Positions 12,154 to 45,188 of a stretch of 64,000 nucleotides of DNA are shown here, piece by piece. The stretch lies in the NCBI RefSeq assembly GCF_008831285.2, contig NC_045145.1, positions 16,552,802-16,616,801 of the forward strand. Direction: 5' to 3'. The stretch comes from Nymphaea colorata (lineage: Eukaryota; Streptophyta; Magnoliopsida; Nymphaeales; Nymphaeaceae). Positions within the stretch are counted from its first letter, which is position 1; each line of letters starts with the position of its first letter. Under the pieces are notes generated by a model. It saw only the letters and a list, made by a program, of their open reading frames with translations, was not told the DNA's origin and searched no databases. The position numbers and the translations under genes were made by a program.

Positions 12154-14420
12154 AGCAGGTCCAAGATCCATTAAGAAATTTCAAGTTTCTTTCCCTTCCA
12201 CAAGCAACATAACCTGATAAGTTCCGCAGGAGTTTTCATTCAGAAATCTTTGTGCTCATATGAGACATAAAAACCTCATGTGCTACTTTTAGACCACAGT
12301 CGTGTTTGCTTGTGTTCGTGAAAGAATCGTTATAACAGTGTTTGCCACTGTTCAAAGAAATAAGGACGAGAAGTAATTCAACGTACAAGAAGCGGTACAG
12401 ATTCTTTATTGAATGCCATTTGTAACATGTCTATATTAAATATTTAATAGGTACTTCTTACATCAACTGTAATTATTCCTTCATTTATATATATACATAT
12501 ATATGTATATGTTTCCCCTAGTTACAAGTAATTTTTTTCTGTTTGCGTTGGTTTTTGATAGTGAATGGCAGATGTTGTGGACTCGTATTAATACTAGCTT
12601 CCATGTGACAGTGCGTATAAATTATTGAGTTCGTGTATTTGTTGATTAGAGTATAAAATTAGTTAGATAATGCATGACACCTATGGATTACGAGAGGTTG
12701 AACTGGCTGGGAATCAGGGAAGGCGATTCCTTGGCATCTTTCCAGTTTGACAGTTGTGCCCCTTCAATTATTTAATTGCGAGCAATTATTGCCGTGCTTC
12801 CGTCCCAACAGTTATCGCAGCGTTTACTTGGATCAAGTCTCGGTGTCGTCATTTCTAGTGGGCGGCAACGACAAGAGTCATCCAAGGAGAGAGAGGGAAT
12901 TTTGGAAAAGGAAGGAAAACGTAATTGCTTGCTTTCGGTGATGGGAGCGAAGACGAGAGATGCCAAAAGGGCGGGGCGAGATTGGTGGGGGGACCCTCGA
13001 TCACCGTCGCCACGTCAGACGGCGGTGGGCTCTCGTCGATTAGCTGGCAAGTGGGTCCCCCGATGCCGACGCGTAATGTCCACGCGCATTGACGCCTTTT
13101 ATTCTCAATTCCCACCTCCACTTCCGTCTTATTCCTTTCGGAGTCCCACCGCGCCATTTTTCACTGATCACGTCATAAGTCACGATCTTCTGTTTCACCT
13201 AAACCAAACGCGTCCCTAACCTCCCCCTCCAAATCCACCACACCTTTATATCTTGAAAAAAAATAATATTTATAGAAGTCAACAATTCATGAAGCTTCGG
13301 CTCCTTGAACAATAATATAATGAGAGATAATTTATCTTTTAAGTTTGGAGATGATAATTACTTTAAGAACACTTGTACAGCCAAGTGTACGTTTTTGGCA
13401 CATTAAGAAAATCAATGAATGGGGCGAATGAAGGGCGGAGCATAGAAGATCACCAAAGGAAGGCGCTTTCAGAAATATCAGAAATAGAAGGGGGTGAAGA
13501 CGAAAAACACTGAGATGCACAGTGAAATGGGAGGACGGAAGGGAACCGCTTCCCAGCGGCGGCGTCCAACCGGGCCCCTTCTTCTCCCTCTTCCCACCGG
13601 CTGTCCCTAACTTCTTTTTATATTATATATGTATATATATATATAACATTAAAGTCTACCAATAATTGACCATTGAATTTTTATTTATTTTTCGTTACTA
13701 AAAACCACCATAAAATCTATATTAAGCATGTCTTTCATTTGGACTTTGTTTTTAATGTCGATATTTGGCAATTATGTTTGATGTCCTTTGTAAAAGAAAA
13801 TTAAATAAAAATAATCAACTGACATACATATATGAAAAGTGAAATTCTACAACTATTCAACCCTCTATCGAATCACAACCATCCTATATATGATGTGAAA
13901 GGTTATAAGAAATTCAAAAATGTCACACACACACTCATACATAAAGTTAATGGATTTAGTTATCCATCCATCCAAACGATAAAGGGTACGAGTTTGAGAC
14001 ATGTAAAATGGATAGATAGATAAATGATTTCAATATATATATATATATATGTTAAAACTAAGCTTAGATTTAGTAAATAAAATATTTATAAAGACATCGC
14101 AACGAAAACAAAAAATAAAATCTGATATGTAACATAAGTTTTATGAGCTGAGAACGCGAAGATATATATAGAGAGAAAGGGAAAAAAGAGGAGAGGTTCC
14201 CCACTATTTGAAGGTCCATGGGCGTACCAAGAGAAGGCGAGAAGGGAGAGCGCGAAACGTCTGTACAGGGAGAGAGAGCCATCTCCCGCCCCATCGCTAG
14301 CCCCGCAGGGGCGAGGGGCTTTTTCTAATTCTCCACCGCCACGGCACCACCCACCACCAGAGGCAGCCGCCATCCCCAAAAGGAAAAAAAAGGAGAAAAG
14401 GAAGAGAAGCAAGATCTACA
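12154..14420. other. Upstream region of the DUF1685 gene
   Basis: A GC-richer block at about 12830-13230 contains several ACGT-type motifs (for example CCACGTCA near 13010) but no recognisable protein in either strand. TA-rich runs lie at 12488-12510, 13620-13645 and 14033-14050. A GA-rich stretch at 14165-14290 precedes the ATG at 14421 and probably belongs to the promoter and leader. Confidence 0.45.
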
Positions 14421-17400
14421 ATGGTTGGAAGAGACAAGGGCATGAGCTACACAAAGGAAGAAGAAGAAGGCGAAGAACTAGTTAATGAGTCGGAGTTGAT
14501 GGTGGGATCGACAGGTTTGATGACGATCGAATCGGCTCCGGAGACGGCCGAAGGCGTCCCCGGGTTCCATCATGCGCCCAACAAGAAGGTCGAGTTCGAA
14601 ATGGATGAGGAGGAGGAGGAAGAGGAAGAGGAGTTCTGGGATGACCACGACTCGTTCCCGGAGTTCCCACCCGGCGAGGTGCCCGACTTTCTGGCAGGCG
14701 GCAAGGATAGCAAGCCGATCCTACGGAAAGCCGACGGGCAACCGCCGCTTTACAAGCACAGATCGTGGTCTAACGACTCGTATCGTGAGGAGGCGTGGCT
14801 GAGGCGCAAAGGTAGCATGGGCGGCGGCCCGAGGCGGAGCAAGAGCGTCACCGATGAGGATCTCGACGAGCTCCGCGGGTGTATCGATCTGGGATTCCGG
14901 TTTGACGGCCAGGAGGATCGGAGCCTCTCCGACACGATCCCCGCCCTCGACCTATATTACGCTGTGAACCGGCAGTACGCAGACTGTGTCTCGAAGTCGT
15001 CGGCCTCGGATTGCTCCGGATCGCCCGGCGGCAGCCCCCACAACTTCTTCGAACCAGGTACCGATCCCCTTCTTCTCCTCCTAGTTTCCTACCAAAATTC
15101 AGAACCGGTTATCTTTATCCGACTCGGTCCTCGGCATCGCTGTTATGTCACTGTATTAAATACGATTTCTTCGCCGCCCGATCCGATGGCGGGAGGAGTC
15201 AGCGATTCACAGAAGGAAGTCTCCCTCCGGTCGAACCGCCGACCAGATCCGCCCGGAAAGGGTTAAAGAGAATCCTCCTGAAATAATGACTGTTTTACAT
15301 TTATTAGTCAACGTGATTGCTCGTATACAATCTTAGGATCTTATCAAGGCTTGGCTCGTGTATCCCTATATTTTCGAAGTATGAATTTGCTTTTAGGCTT
15401 AAGATTTCGACAACCCATGGCAGTGAATTTGCTGATACAACTACTTATTGGCTGATATATTAGTACGTATATCAGTACATATTTGCTGCTGATACAAGTT
15501 CGTATTGGTTGACATATTAGCAAAAAAATGTTTGTTTTATTTTTTATTGAATTTTAATTGGCCGATAGGGCTGGACATAGAACTACTTATATTTTGAGGA
15601 TTTTGGTATGATTCAGGATACATTGTTTACAACATTGAACAGTAGTAGAAAATTTGTGTGCACAATAATGGCTATTTTTTGGTGGCTTTGAACCATTGTA
15701 ACGGAAAATGCGTCTTATTCGAAGAACGGATAAAAATGTTAAGAACATTTAAAACGATAAAAGCCCGTCATTTCCCCTTTTTTTGAGAAGAAAAACTCTG
15801 AAATGAATTATTTCTGTTCTTTTTGTGTTTTTATCACGTTTTCCTCATTATTCTTACGTTACTTTTGCTTTAAATTTGAAACTTAAGTTAAAATTATTTG
15901 CTTTCATTTCTATTATTACTAAAACATCAGTTTTTATCATTTTATCGAATCATTTTTAATGTTTTCTTGTTGTTTTTTCATTATTTTAATTTTTCCTGTT
16001 TTTAGTTTTTTTTTTCTTTTCTAAAGAATTTTAAAAATTTTTCACTAAGATTTTCAGCTTTGTAGAGAAATATCCCCAGAAAAAATCTAACTGTTTGAAA
16101 ACCTGTTAGCCATATTTGTAACTACGCTTTAAAATTTAAACTATGCCCAGACATTCCAACTTCAACTTGTCGTGGATTTTACCGCAAAGTAGAGGTCATG
16201 AGAATGATTTGTAACTATTCACTTGGAAGTAATTCAATGGTTTGGAGAATTAAGCGCAACCTCTGTGGAAGGCTGGTATTTATCGTTTAATCGGGTAGCG
16301 AGCGAATTGTCTTTTATGGTTTGGTGTTCTTCTTTGTTTTTTTCCTTTCTGGTAGGGCATTAATTGCTTGTATTAAAAAAGGATGCACCTCGAGCTTTGG
16401 ATTCGCTGCCTTGCATTTTACTTTTAGGTTTTTTATTTTAAAAAAATTGCCAAGATTTTCTATTCCCAAGAAAAACCTTACTGATATTTATTATTATGAT
16501 GATATGATCAGAAGCCATTTACAGCCAACTTCGAGGGAATTTAGAGTTTTATTTTGAATCCATTAAGGGAAACAAAAACTGAACATTTTTAGAAAGATAC
16601 GGTTATTGACCACCCATCTTGCAACGATAGCCCCGTGCCAGTTATGTGAGCCAGCTTGAGCTGGGCCTTGCCTCGTTATGGTTGAGCTCTAATGGTGGCC
16701 CTAGCCATGGCTGGAAGAAAGTCCAAAAGGTGGGCGCTTTTCCCTATGAAAGTTGGACTCCTGTTTCCTTCTCCTCCGAATTGGCAGCGACTTTCAGGCC
16801 TTTAATTTCTACCAACACATCAGAATTCTTACGTTGAGATGGAAACCATAATAAGTGCCCAGAATTTCGTGCAACACGGGTGTGATTTATTGCTAAATTC
16901 TAGTCAGCCAGGATGACTGGGAAAAATTTAACATTCGAAAATTGTATTGCATATTATATTATCTTGTTGTTAATCTTGAGAACACTTTTAGAGTCTGGAC
17001 GTTTTCGAAATTTTGTCAGTACTCTCCCGTGGTCTAATTTCCAAAAGTCCCACAATGGTAAAACAAGAACAAGCGACATGCTCAAGTTTCAAAAATTATC
17101 CTTTCACCGACTATTCATTGTAATTGCTTCGCAATTCAAGCAGACGAATAGAGAATTTTGATACTTGGGCATGCTTTTTCTCATAAGAAGTTTTTTCTTC
17201 ATGGTTTGCAATACATGTTCGAATTATCGCATATCTTTCATGGCAGACCTCTTGGTGTAAATGTGCGTCCAGTATTTCTGAGCCATTTTCCCACGATGAA
17301 TAGCATTTTGAAATGTTTGGAGACAAGTGACTGTAAGGAAGCTTATGCTCACTCTTAAGTTTTCAAATCCATTTGATCTAGCTCGACTATCCTTTTAGCC

Positions 17401-32200: not shown

Positions 32201-33017
32201 CAATTTCTAATAAATAATGTCGCGTTCATGCCAATTAATTAAGTGGGGTGCGTCGGACGTTTTCTTTACGCAAAAAGGCAAAGAGAAATCGAAAGTAAAG
32301 AAAAAGCCGGTCCACCTAAACCACCACATGGATTGCAGTGAAATTTCAACCAAGACTTGTTCACACGAGCAAACACGACGAGGACTGAGTGTTTCCGGTA
32401 TATTCCAATTTAACCGGCCACTTTAATCGCCGTGAGGTTTAACTTGTCCTGGAAGAATCTTCCCTTCCGCATCCCGCAAGAGGTTGGAGTGGGAGTAATA
32501 TCATATCCTGGTGGCCGCCGACTTCACCGTCGATGGACCCAGCCGCCCCTTCTCCCGGAAAAGTAAAGGCAGGTTAGCACCGGACCAGCGCTCTCTCTAT
32601 GGACAACTAAGTAATTTTGGCGATGAAGTTGGGGAGTTAAAGGGGCGGGGGGAGAAGAAGACGATCACCGAGGCGGGGTCAAAATTTCCGGCTCTGTCTG
32701 TCTTCTTCCAGACGTTTCCACCAACTGTCGCTTTCTTTCTCCAACCGTCCCGCCGGAGTCCGACGAGTCGACGGCCGGGAGGCTCCCCCAGTTGTTAGGT
32801 GAGCGTTGGAACCGAGAGAAGAAAATATCGGACGTGAATCGGTAGATCTGAAAAAAGGACGAGTTCTCCTCTGGAAGTTGGCCAGGATCGCGCCACGTGG
32901 AGCGCTGGGGAACCGTTGGATTGACGCTGGCGCCGGGGAGAAGCTTCCACGGTTCGGGGGAAAAGTGATGCGGGAAAGGATTTCCCACCTTTCTGCCCGT
33001 TTTGTTCCATGGTTCGC
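29291..33017. other. Intergenic stretch upstream of HSFB1
   Basis: Mostly AT-rich. A 41-bp tandem duplication (ATGCCCATGAAAATCGAACC twice) starts at 30069 and 30110, and an alternating GT/GC run lies near 30482-30506. The 118-codon frame at 31317-31673 is moderately protein-like but matches no family I know. From about 32450 the sequence becomes GC-richer and probably belongs to the HSFB1 promoter. It includes GAATCTTC (32455-32462), a minimal two-unit heat shock element. Confidence 0.45.
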
Positions 33018-33096
33018 TTCTGGAAGTTTCTGGAACTGCTCTCCCTCTCCGCTTTCTAGAGTCATCTTTTTGCCCTTTCCTCTTTCCGGAAAATTC
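33018..33096 (+). promoter_or_regulatory. Two perfect heat shock elements upstream of HSFB1
   Basis: TTCTGGAAGTTTCTGGAA at 33018-33035 is four alternating units, TTC-nn-GAA-nn-TTC-nn-GAA, with exact spacing. TTCCGGAAAATTC at 33084-33096 is a further perfect three-unit element. Such arrays bind trimeric heat stress factors. They lie 840-920 nt upstream of the HSFB1 ATG, outside the presumed long leader, and a weak TATA-like GAATATAG follows near 33202. Heat-inducible, HSF-controlled transcription is inferred from these motifs. Confidence 0.75.
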
Positions 33097-33620
33097 TTCG
33101 TCGAGAGCCTTTTTTTTTTTTTTTTCTCATCCTTCGAGGCTCATCCGTCCCTTGGGCCCACCTTAATTTTTTGTTTTTCGGAAATTAACATTAAAAAGCC
33201 GAATATAGCTGGGGCTCGGGGGAGGAGGAGGAGGAGCAAAAAGCATCCGTAGGTCAAATCAGGGCTGTTCATTGGGTCGGTCTTCGGGAGCATAAAGCCG
33301 TGCATCTTCTTCTTCCATCGAGAGGATTTTTTGGGAAGGCTGGAGGAGAGGGCGAACGGCCGGAGAGGGAGAGATCTCTGAGGAATTTTGGCGCGTTTCC
33401 TCGAAGGAGGAGATCGTGCTAGTTGTTTTGGGGAATTTGCAGATCCCTGGAAATTCCTTTAAGTCTTGTTCTGTTCTGATTTTTTTTTTTCTTGGGTTGG
33501 ATTGAATTCATAGCCTTCTTCGGTTTCTTTATCCTTTTTTTCTGCCTGGATTTTAGATTCGACTGTGAATATCCCGAGATCGAACGCCTCGTTCGGTTGA
33601 TTTTCTTTGCCTTGTGGAGT

Positions 33621-33686
33621 ATGAGTTTGGGGCGTGGAGGTAGTTGGGGCGTGATCTTGGGGGGGAAGAGGAAGGGATTTTCTTGA
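33621..33686 (+). CDS. Upstream ORF 1 in the HSFB1 leader (21 aa)
   Basis: This is the first ATG in the presumed leader; I find no other between about 33240 and 33621. It has A at -3. The frame encodes MSLGRGGSWGVILGGKRKGF plus Ser and ends with TGA at 33684-33686, immediately before the ATG of uORF 2. It lies 249 nt upstream of the main HSFB1 stop-to-start gap. Arabidopsis HSFB1/TBF1 also carries two uORFs that repress translation of the main frame. Conservation of this particular peptide is unknown to me. Confidence 0.55.
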   Translation: MSLGRGGSWGVILGGKRKGFS

Positions 33687-33827
33687 ATGGAGGAGGGAGC
33701 GTCTCGCTCAGCGATACAAGGGGATTGCCGGGATCTCATGAATTGCGGCAGGGTCGCCGGTTTCTATTGCTGGGGTTGGGAATTCCTTACGGCTCTTCTC
33801 CTCTTTAGTTGTTCCTTCTCCAACTAG
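33687..33827 (+). CDS. Upstream ORF 2 in the HSFB1 leader (46 aa), probable conserved-peptide uORF
   Basis: The ATG at 33687 abuts the TGA of uORF 1 with no spacer. The 46-residue peptide ends with an aromatic and hydrophobic tail containing GFYCWGWEFLTALLLFSC. Such a tail fits a nascent-peptide uORF that stalls the ribosome, and HSFB1 (TBF1) leaders of other plants carry a conserved-peptide uORF controlling translation in heat and immunity. The stop (TAG, 33825-33827) is 107 nt before the main ATG, and a CT repeat fills part of that gap. The start context is weak (T at -3, G at +4), which would allow some leaky scanning. Confidence 0.75.
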   Translation: MEEGASRSAIQGDCRDLMNCGRVAGFYCWGWEFLTALLLFSCSFSN

Positions 33828-33832
33828 AATAA

Positions 33833-33834
<2 letters not shown>

Positions 33835-33877
<43 letters not shown>
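33835..33877. repeat. (CT)n microsatellite between uORF 2 and the HSFB1 start
   Basis: An uninterrupted 43-nt CT run lies in the transcribed leader. A second CT run, 34190-34220, begins six nucleotides inside the HSFB1 intron. Confidence 0.95.
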
Positions 33878-33880
<3 letters not shown>

Positions 33881-33934
33881 CTTCCTTTTTTCGCTTTTTT
33901 TGTCATTTGGTGGTTGAGCGGAGGAGCGAAAGGA

Positions 33935-34187
33935 ATGGCTCCTTCCTGTAAGCAGACGGCGAGGGAGTGCGGTGGTGGGGAGGCGCAGAGGTCGGCGCCC
34001 GCGCCCTTCTTGACGAAGACGTACCAGTTGGTCGAAGACCCGGAGACGGACGACGTCATCTCTTGGGGGGAAAGCGGTGCCACCTTCGTGGTGTGGAAGC
34101 CCGCGGAGTTTGCCAGGGACCTACTTCCCAACTACTTCAAGCACAATAATTTCTCTAGCTTTGTTCGGCAGCTTAACACTTACGTAT

Positions 34188-34223
<36 letters not shown>

Positions 34224-35234
34224 GCTTCTTCTCATTCATGGAGAAAGACTTAGAGATGCCATTGGTTCCTTTTGTTTTCTCAAAACTCCATTGAATTTTC
34301 CAATCATGCTAGCTTTTGAGGATGGGGATAGATCTCGAATTACTGGGGTTGATTTTCGTTTCTCAATCGTGGAGTCTAGTCGACTATGCGATTTCTCTAT
34401 GATCGATGATCTTATTTAACGGTTTATATACAAAAAAAAAATGATAGCGCAAATTGTGTCATCCTTCTATTTCCTTCTCTTTTTTTTGCGGGATGAAGAA
34501 TCATAGAGGTCTTTTCTTATTTATTGCCGGAAAAGAGATATCTAACTCTTTCTTTGGAACCCGTCGTACAGGGCTTCCGGAAGATTGTTCCTGATAGGTG
34601 GGAATTCACCAACGACAATTTCCGACGAGGAGAGAAAGCTCTCCTGGCGGAAATCCACCGGAGGAAGGCGCCCTCCGTTCAGAGCCCCGCAGCTGTTTGC
34701 GGGACACTCACCCAGCCATCGTCCTCGCCAACAAATTCCGGCGAGGACCATACTTCCTCGTCCACGTCCTCTTCTGATCCCTCTCGTAGGCAGCAGCAAT
34801 TATCCGGCGAGGCGTCCCGATTCTCCAACCTCTCGGATGAGAACGTGAAGCTGAAGAAGGAGAATCAGTTGCTCAGCTCAGAGCTCGCGCAGACTAGGAA
34901 GCAATGCGAGGAGCTCCTCAATGTCCTCTCGGGCTACATCAACGTCTCGCCGGAGCACATCAACAAGATAATGCAGGGGGAGGGCATCAGCAAGGTTCAG
35001 CCTCTCGCCAGTGAAACAAGCCCAAAAAGGATGGAAGAAAAGAAGGAAGAAGAAGAAGGGGAGAGTGTGAAGCTTTTCGGTGTCGAGGTGAAGGTGGCCG
35101 GAGAAGGGAAAAAAAGGTTCCGGGTGGATGATGTCTTGGTTCACAAGAGCCAGCCGTTCAAGGAGATGAAAATGGATCTCCAACCCCCATGGATGAAGAT
35201 ATCCTCCCCGAGAGGTAGCAAAGTTTGCAACTAA
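33935..35234 (+). CDS. HSFB1: Class B heat stress transcription factor HSFB1
   Basis: Exon 1 is 33935-34183 and exon 2 is 34572-35234, encoding 303 residues. The N-terminal DNA-binding domain (about 22-115) carries [49 protein letters not shown] and [12 protein letters not shown]. The intron falls after LNTY, the position conserved in plant HSFs. A Ser-rich linker follows, then a class-B oligomerisation coiled coil at about 168-217 ([20 protein letters not shown]). The repressor motif KLFGV is at 250-254, a basic KKRFR stretch at 263-267, and the C terminus is GSKVCN. The VCN end and overall layout match Arabidopsis HSFB1 (TBF1), not HSFB2 or HSFB4. Class B factors lack the activator AHA motif and act as repressors or coactivators in heat and immune responses. 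The ATG is in strong context (G at -3 and +4). Confidence 0.97.
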
Positions 35235-42486: not shown

Positions 42487-45188
42487 ATGCTGTCCGTGCG
42501 CCTCCTCGGTGCCTCCAGACCGGCTCTCCAGCCCCGCGCCGCGCAGATTCCGGCCGCCGAGACGGCCGTGGAGGCGTCGAGGTTGGAGGCCAGAGTGGAG
42601 GAGAAGGATGGGTACTGGGTTCTGAAGGAGAAGTTCAGAGCAGGAATCAATCCCCAAGAGAAGGTAAGCAAATGCGGCCGTTTCAACAGAGACTTTGTTT
42701 AGATCGGTTCGATCGGGTATGCTGCTGAAACCATTTTAATGAATCGTTACCAAAGACAGAAGGCAAAATGGTGTTCAGAGAATTGAATGGTTTTGTGAAG
42801 TACTGCATTAGACAGATGGAATCGTGGAATTTGAAAATTCTCTGTGAAACAGGAAAAGCGGATTGTGAAAAGGAAATTGAAGGGGTTCTTTTCTTCCTGC
42901 TAACTAATTCTGTTGCTTGCAGGCGAAGCTGGAGAAGGAGCCAATGAAGCTGCTGATGGAGCGCGGGATCGACGAGCTGGCGGCGATGTCCATGGACGAG
43001 GTCGAGGCGTCGAAACTCACCAAGGACGACATAGACATGAGGCTCAAGTGGCTCGGCTTCTTCCACAGAAGGAAGCACCAATGTCAGCTCTCTCTCTCTC
43101 TCTCTCTCTTATATGGGTTGATGTTACTTGGGCATGTTCCTATCTTCCATTCTCGTTTCCATGGAATGTTTGTTCTTTGTGATGGAACACAAATCACGAT
43201 GAGATGAGAACGCAGACGTTCCAGAGACATGAACAGCTCACCGCGTTCTGGCGCCGTAATCAAACAATTGATAAGAGTATAGCAATGCGTGAAAGTCTAA
43301 TTTTGAGGCCGGAAATTGCAGATGGCCGATTCATGGTGAGGCTGAAGCTGCCGAACGGGGTCACGACCAGTGCCCAGACGCGCTACCTCGCCGGCGTCGT
43401 GGCCGGCTACGGTTCCGAAGGCTGCGCCGATGTGACGACCCGGCAGAATTGGCAGATCCGGGGCGTGACGCTTCAAGACGCTCCGGCCATCCTGGCGGGC
43501 CTGGAGGAGGTGGGCCTCAACAGCCTGCAGAGCGGCATGGATAACGTCCGGAACCCGGTCGGTAACCCGCTAGCGGGCATCGACCCGCACGAGGTAGTCG
43601 ACACCAGGGCCTACACCAACCTGCTCTCTCAATTCATAACCGCTAACGGGAAGGGCAACCCTTCCGTAACAAACTTGTAGGTCCTCTGCCACTGTTCATT
43701 CGTTTACGTTGTGTTGAGTGGATAGACTGAGGTGCTCAAGGGTTGATTGGACACAGGCCGAGGAAATGGAACGTGTGCGTGGTGGGCTCCCATGACCTCT
43801 ACGAGCATCCCCACATAAACGACCTCGCCTACGTTCCGGCCGTGAAGGACGGCCGCTTCGGCTTCAATCTCCTCGTGGGAGGCTTCTTCAGCCCCAAGCG
43901 CTGCGCCGAGGCGGTGCCGCTAGATGCTTGGGTCGCCGGAGACGACGTCATCCCGGCCTGCAGAGCTGTGCTCGAGGCATACAGGGATCTTGGCAGCAGG
44001 GGGAACCGCCAAAAAACGCGGATGATGTGGCTTATAGACGAGCTCGTAAGTTGTCGCTCAAATTTCCTCTAATTGCAGAAGAAAAATCCTTGCTGGCTTG
44101 CCAAGCATGGTTAGTGGAAAACTGTTCATGATTTGCCGTGAAATTTTCAATCTCATGACAATGAGCAACGCAACTGATCTGAAACTTTCTCGTCTTCTTC
44201 TTTTGTTACCCATTTTAGTGTTTGTAGCGGTATCGCTTTTTACGGGTTTTCTTTGTCAAGAAACTGAAAATTTTATGCACCTCTCGGTCATTGTCATTTT
44301 GAATTGAGACCGCATCACTTTGCCTCGTGAAACAGGCAGAAAACGCCTCTGTGATCTTCAAGTGAATTTCTATTAATCGCTTGATGATTTGTGCTGGCAA
44401 TGCGCTGAAACTTTGATGTGAATTAGGGAGTTGAAGGATTCAGAGCAGAGGTTGAAAAGAGAATGCCTGCCGGGGAGTTGTTAGCGAGGGCAGCCGAGGA
44501 AGACATGGTCGACAAGAACTGGGTTAGAAGAGAGTACCTGGGCGTTCACCCTCAGAAGCAAAAAGGACTGAACTTTGTTGGTCTCCATGTGCCGGTGGGC
44601 CGCCTCCAGGCCGACGACATGTTCGAGCTGGCACGCCTGGCAGACACCTACGGGACAGGGGAGCTCAGGCTCACAGTGGAGCAGAACATCATACTTCCCA
44701 ATGTCAAGGACTCTGATCTTGATTCTCTGTTGCAAGAGAGGCTCTTGAAAGAGAGGCTATCACCATTCCCTGGTTCGCTGATGCGGACGTTGGTGGCATG
44801 CACCGGAAGTCAATTCTGCGGCCAAGCCATAATCGAGACGAAGGCGCGGGCATTGAAGGTAACAGAGGAGCTGGAGAAGAGGGTAACTGTAACCCGGCCT
44901 GTGCGGATGCACTGGACCGGGTGTCCCAACAGCTGCGGACAGGTGCAAGTGGCTGACATTGGGTTCATGGGCTGCATGACAAGGGATGAAAATGGCAAGG
45001 TGTGTGAAGGTGTGGATGTCTACTTGGGTGGTAGGATAGGCTCCAATTCTCACCTTGGGGATCTTATCATGAAAGGGGTACCCTGCAAAGATTTGGTTCC
45101 CTTGGTTGAGGAAATTTTGGTGGAGCACTTGGGTGCAATCCGCAAGAAACCAGATGAAGAAGATGATATGGAGGAAGGGGAAGAATGA
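42487..45188 (+). CDS. NIR1: Ferredoxin-nitrite reductase, plastid
   Basis: Five exons, 42487-42663, 42923-43082, 43322-43676, 43757-44045 and 44427-45188, join in phase to encode 580 residues, the usual length. The enzyme reduces nitrite to ammonium with six electrons from ferredoxin in plastids. Near-invariant family blocks are YGRFMVRLKLPNGVTT, CADVTTRQNWQIRGV, SGMDNVRNPVGNPLAGIDPH, GSHDLYEHPHINDLAY and FGFNLLVGGFFS. The 4Fe-4S/siroheme ligands are C452 and C458 (CTGSQFC) and C493 and C497 (CPNSC). The first 30 or so residues, rich in Ala, Arg and Ser with few acidic residues, look like a short transit peptide before ASRLEARVEEKDGYWVLKE, where the mature family sequence begins. The C terminus ends in an acidic tail. 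All key residues are intact, so the gene appears functional. Confidence 0.98.

Follow-up and report, generated by a model that had tools for sequence, protein, structure and literature searches.

Two touching upstream reading frames in the presumed leader of an HSFB1-type gene of Nymphaea colorata, the second a probable conserved-peptide uORF

When two upstream open reading frames (uORFs) touch, does the contact itself control translation, or is it incidental to what the frames encode? This question is raised by a 64,000-nt stretch of Nymphaea colorata DNA (hereafter, the window), in which two such frames precede an HSFB1-type gene. An initial annotation proposed that reinitiation or stop–start coupling across their zero spacing is a specific mechanism, and it drew on the repressive two-uORF leader of Arabidopsis HSFB1/TBF1, a precedent that is indeed documented for At4g36990 (PMC6687712, PMC4746267, PMC10499604). 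Repression in Arabidopsis is reported to be lifted by heat or pathogen; one study assigns control to uORF2, not uORF1, with release by heat, and a second describes both uORFs as inhibitory, with uORF2 epistatic (both as cited in PMC4746267). HSFB1/TBF1 leaders have also been employed to make crop defense proteins inducible (PMC12857212). Owing to this use, an additional natural leader, with a spacing and an internal uORF2 start of its own, is useful for comparison. The kind of HSFB1 uORF in question is already described, and the locus is otherwise an ordinary case.

The anatomy of the leader was read directly from the plus strand. uORF1 (33621..33686) runs from ATG 33621 to TGA 33684-33686 and encodes 21 aa with one Phe, while uORF2 (33687..33827) runs from ATG 33687 to TAG 33825-33827 and encodes 46 aa with four Phe. 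The stop of the first and the start of the second together occupy 33684..33689 with zero gap; the coordinates, lengths, and spacing originally given for the pair were exact. An in-frame ATG at codon 18 of uORF2 (33738..33740) lies 5' of the conserved tail, and initiation there would yield 29 aa including the entire tail. Mutating uAUG2 alone may therefore leave a 29-aa uORF that retains the whole conserved tail. Upstream, a TATA-like box, CATAAA (33291..33296, plus strand), places the presumed transcription start approximately 30 nt 3' of it; we infer both this start and the absence of a leader intron from the sequence. Between the box and the main ATG at 33935, the only ATGs are those at 33621, 33687, and 33738, the third in frame within uORF2. 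Two further ATGs, at 32968 and 33009, lie 5' of it.

The main frame, delimited by reading frame and Pfam, comprises exon 1 (33935..34183, plus strand) and exon 2 (34572..35234, plus strand), the latter carrying a KLFGV motif. When spliced across a GT..AG intron, it remains intact at 303 aa and contains an HSF DNA-binding domain (PF00447, E 3.2e-31). The earlier HSFB1 identification is thus supported as a class-B HSF of HSFB1 type, with the choice of B1 over other class-B types resting on the KLFGV motif and the C-terminal end, features taken to mark HSFB1. Motif search of the window also identified candidate promoter heat-shock elements (HSEs). One has four alternating units (TTCnnGAAnnTTCnnGAA; 33018..33035, plus strand) and is the single match of its kind in the window; at least one such match occurred in 4 of 100 window shuffles. 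The second has three units (TTCnnGAAnnTTC; 33084..33096, plus strand). Three-unit elements matched 5 times in the window versus 1.27 expected, a count reached in none of 100 shuffles, and two of these five matches (33018 and 33023) are parts of the four-unit site at 33018-33035. Both elements are in keeping with a heat-regulated gene.

Several other features of the region were recorded. A 43-nt (CT)n run (33835..33877, plus strand) lies between uORF2 and the main ATG, and it pairs with purine-rich stretches 5' of it in the predicted whole-leader fold; a similar CT repeat lies early in the intron, from 34188. Toward the 3' end of uORF1, a stretch of 19 purines (33659..33677, plus strand) is a putative R-motif-like element. 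R-motifs, which are purine-rich and overlap the uORFs or lie 3' of them, reportedly allow cap-independent entry (PMC11062462), and the R-motif is also treated in PMC12857212. A search for known RNA families returned none at gathering score within the window. On the minus strand, a 106-aa open frame at 33419-33739 runs opposite the leader and the two uORFs, probably by chance. The neighboring genes, by Pfam, encode a DUF1685 protein (14301-15266), a nitrite/sulfite reductase (43183-45188), and a cytochrome P450 (59097-60945).

The frequency at which touching uORFs arise by chance was estimated from 5000 dinucleotide shuffles of each of two leader definitions, 33320-33934 and 33500-33934. An abutting uORF pair was present in 4.7% and 3.1% of these shuffles, respectively, and of the 2526 ATGs on the two strands of the window, 110 (4.4%) come immediately after a stop triplet. 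With an abutting pair in 3–5% of leader shuffles, the zero gap was rejected as strong evidence by itself. The length of uORF2 was likewise rejected as evidence, given that a uORF reaching at least 46 aa was common in shuffles of both definitions (52% and 36%, respectively). Moreover, the zero gap amounts to one frame with a single in-frame TGA, and that description therefore restates the observation and adds no second coincidence. It does raise the idea of a single 67-residue uORF produced by read-through of the TGA, for which the shared frame of uORF1 and uORF2 speaks; the conserved part of uORF2, however, requires no such extension, and a TGA with A after it is not known to be leaky. We regard read-through as extremely improbable. 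The abutment of uORF1 and uORF2 is most likely incidental.

The start contexts bear on whether ribosomes could pass from one frame to the other. At positions -3 and +4, in that order, the bases are A and A for uAUG1, U and G for uAUG2, C and A for the internal ATG at 33738, and G and G for the main ATG. Any stop codon in contact with the next ATG places U at -3, so that uAUG2 is bound to have an unfavorable context. After a short uORF, a ribosome can reinitiate only once its 40S subunit has reacquired initiator tRNA, and the outcome therefore depends on how far away the next start lies, with a minimum distance required (PMC5972666). No such distance separates the end of uORF1 from uAUG2, and uORF1 should therefore not feed uORF2; for ribosomes that remain on the mRNA, the main ATG lies 248 nt beyond the end of uORF1.

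Stop–start reinitiation, in which a ribosome would end uORF1 at the TGA and restart at the touching ATG so that uORF1 relays ribosomes to uORF2, nevertheless has precedents. Examples are described from viruses and a small number of cellular mRNAs, and DENR-MCT-1 has been proposed as a route that needs no minimum distance (PMC5972666); in influenza B segment 7, approximately 10% of ribosomes reinitiate in this way (PMC3035654). The zero gap resembles these cases, such as the influenza B UAAUG and those of caliciviruses, in that a stop adjoins a start. However, the codons there usually overlap, whereas here they touch, and the described cases rely on special upstream RNA sequences (PMC5972666). 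Together with the distance needed for ordinary short-uORF reinitiation, the near-chance level of the gap, and the U at -3 of uAUG2, this makes a relay improbable, and reinitiation across the zero spacing is the least favored reading, contrary to the mechanism first suggested for the pair. The arrangement also recalls GCN4/ATF4 delayed reinitiation, which likewise orders a short uORF1, an inhibitory uORF2, and the main frame, but here the inter-uORF gap is zero and uORF2 ends before the main frame begins. The GCN2 dependence of TBF1 derepression is itself disputed, being reported as needed (PMC6687712) and, in a contrary report, as not needed (PMC12857212).

The peptide encoded by uORF2 offers a more direct link to the published system. 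The conserved-peptide uORF of HSFB1 constitutes homology group 18, described from Arabidopsis, cotton, tobacco, and rice (PMC2075485). In that source, the group has a mean uORF Ka/Ks of 0.26 by yn00, the codeml value being footnoted as undeterminable, and its four members then known are 36-38 aa long with neither terminus fixed (Table 6). Homology group 18 is also listed among sequence-dependent uORFs (PMC7106846). uORF2 fits this group by gene, uORF order, four Phe, and hydrophobic tail, which is of the aromatic/hydrophobic type GFYCWxWEFLTALLLFSC; at 46 aa versus 36-38 aa, it is longer, with additional residues at both ends. As in At4g36990, it is the second of two uORFs ahead of an HSFB1-type main gene, and it has four Phe and a hydrophobic aromatic tail. 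Unlike the Arabidopsis leader, for which four Phe are reported in each uORF (PMC4746267), uORF1 has one Phe here.

The letters of the Arabidopsis uORF2 peptide were not found in the text of the literature searched, and the tail had no match in two collections of viral and genome contigs, which do not cover plants and thus say little here. The Arabidopsis uORF1 and uORF2 peptides used for comparison are presumed sequences, written down after the window had been seen. Against the presumed uORF2 peptide, the tail is identical at 17 of 20 positions, with a score of 106 compared with 47 for the best shuffle (0 of 2000 as good), a result that serves as a strong lead and not as a test given the origin of the comparison sequence. 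uORF1 did not match its presumed Arabidopsis counterpart (1308 of 2000 shuffles as good). On these grounds, conservation of uORF2 is very likely, the Arabidopsis comparison sequence being a presumed one, and uORF2 is a probable further member of homology group 18 by presumed orthology. A reading in which both are chance frames in the leader, with no regulatory role in Nymphaea colorata, could draw on the commonness of such length and abutment in shuffles and on the unmatched uORF1, but it must contend with the tail match to the presumed Arabidopsis peptide and with the same gene, order, and four Phe, and we consider it highly improbable.

Searches of the assembly (407.8 Mb, 783 contigs) placed this peptide at a single locus. 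The only match to the uORF2 peptide was uORF2 itself (1 candidate scored), a count that concerns the peptide and not paralogues of the gene. HSF domains matched 32 times, and a uORF2-like frame was found at the window's own locus only, with a score of 131 versus at most 31 elsewhere (8 of the 32 HSF loci, both strands). No known protein family matched the uORF1 or uORF2 peptide, and a solved-structure relative of uORF2 was rejected, with a best E of 0.47.

RNA structure provides a second possible route to control at uAUG2. The TBF1 leader of Arabidopsis forms a hairpin 3' of uAUG2 that boosts initiation there and is opened by helicases upon immune stimulation; such a uAUG-ds switch is described as a stable hairpin within approximately 25 nt after the uAUG, with a quoted range of -19.9 to -34.1 kcal/mol (PMC10499604). 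Here, a hairpin is predicted a few nucleotides after uAUG2 (33693..33788, plus strand; limits set from the predicted fold). For the 100 nt that follow uAUG2, the predicted energy is -38.5 kcal/mol, a value equaled or bettered by 10 of 200 shuffles; for the 100 nt preceding uAUG2, it is -19.4 kcal/mol, which 197 of 200 shuffles equal or better. The 100 nt 3' of the main ATG are predicted to fold as strongly as those after uAUG2 (-37.8 kcal/mol), and in a 20-nt fold scan the segments around uAUG2 reached z scores of only -0.6 to -1.2. In synonymous-codon controls, 112 and 56 variants per 1000 folded as well as the natural hairpin, and selection on the hairpin apart from the peptide is therefore unsupported. 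Elsewhere in the leader, the strongest local fold lies 5' of uORF1 at 33360-33479, with z scores of -3.6 and -3.8 in two overlapping segments.

The resemblance to the TBF1 uAUG2-ds lies in a strong predicted fold starting a few nucleotides after uAUG2, but the energy, which is predicted only, exceeds the published range (PMC10499604). The predicted fold is thus compatible with the published TBF1 switch, short of proof. A stricter interpretation holds that uORF2 represses by ribosome capture alone, through its start codon and hairpin, with the peptide irrelevant and stress-induced helicases opening the hairpin. Such capture is published for Arabidopsis TBF1 uAUG2 (PMC10499604) and the predicted fold is comparable; yet homology group 18 is listed as sequence-dependent (PMC7106846) with a Ka/Ks of 0.26 (PMC2075485), and the fold is not clearly beyond what the peptide constrains. 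We consider capture alone unlikely.

The explanation that we think best accommodates these observations, and in which we place fairly high confidence, is that a homology-group-18 uORF2 represses HSFB1, that ribosomes reach it by leaky scanning, and that uORF1 is accessory. In unstressed cells, scanning ribosomes would leak past uAUG1 and start at uAUG2, where the downstream hairpin would offset the weak context. Translation of the aromatic/hydrophobic uORF2 tail would then stop most ribosomes from reaching the HSFB1 start, and heat or immune signals would let more ribosomes pass to it. The sequence-dependent repression and its release are taken from the Arabidopsis literature. The suggestion of a stalling nascent peptide, made when the leader was first annotated, fits this published sequence dependence, and stalling itself is presumed for uORF2 by extension.

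In the leaky-scanning explanation, uORF1 would be a lineage-variable accessory whose stop touches uAUG2 by accident. Its translation may let a minority of ribosomes skip uORF2 and start again at the main ATG, 248 nt further 3'. If anything, uORF1 would thus carry some ribosomes past uORF2, contrary to the proposed relay, a direction of effect that we infer. The gap could alternatively be a selected device, one that weakens uAUG2 through the U at -3 and makes every ribosome translating uORF1 skip the repressive uORF2, so that uORF1 acts as a relief valve setting the HSFB1 leak; we hold this to be doubtful. Should the uORF1 and uORF2 of Arabidopsis touch in the same way, as they presumably do, the arrangement would be old and kept.

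The search for HSF domains yielded an additional observation regarding the assembly. An in-frame TAG or TAA is present in 10 of the 32 HSF-domain matches, all on contigs numbered at least 71 (C281, C767, C370, C120, C464, C71, C524, C386, and C406), including the loci L001 and L002. The second of these is less clear, whereas L001 contains a long HSF frame if TAA and TAG are read as Gln (table 6) and resembles ciliate-type contamination of a plant assembly.
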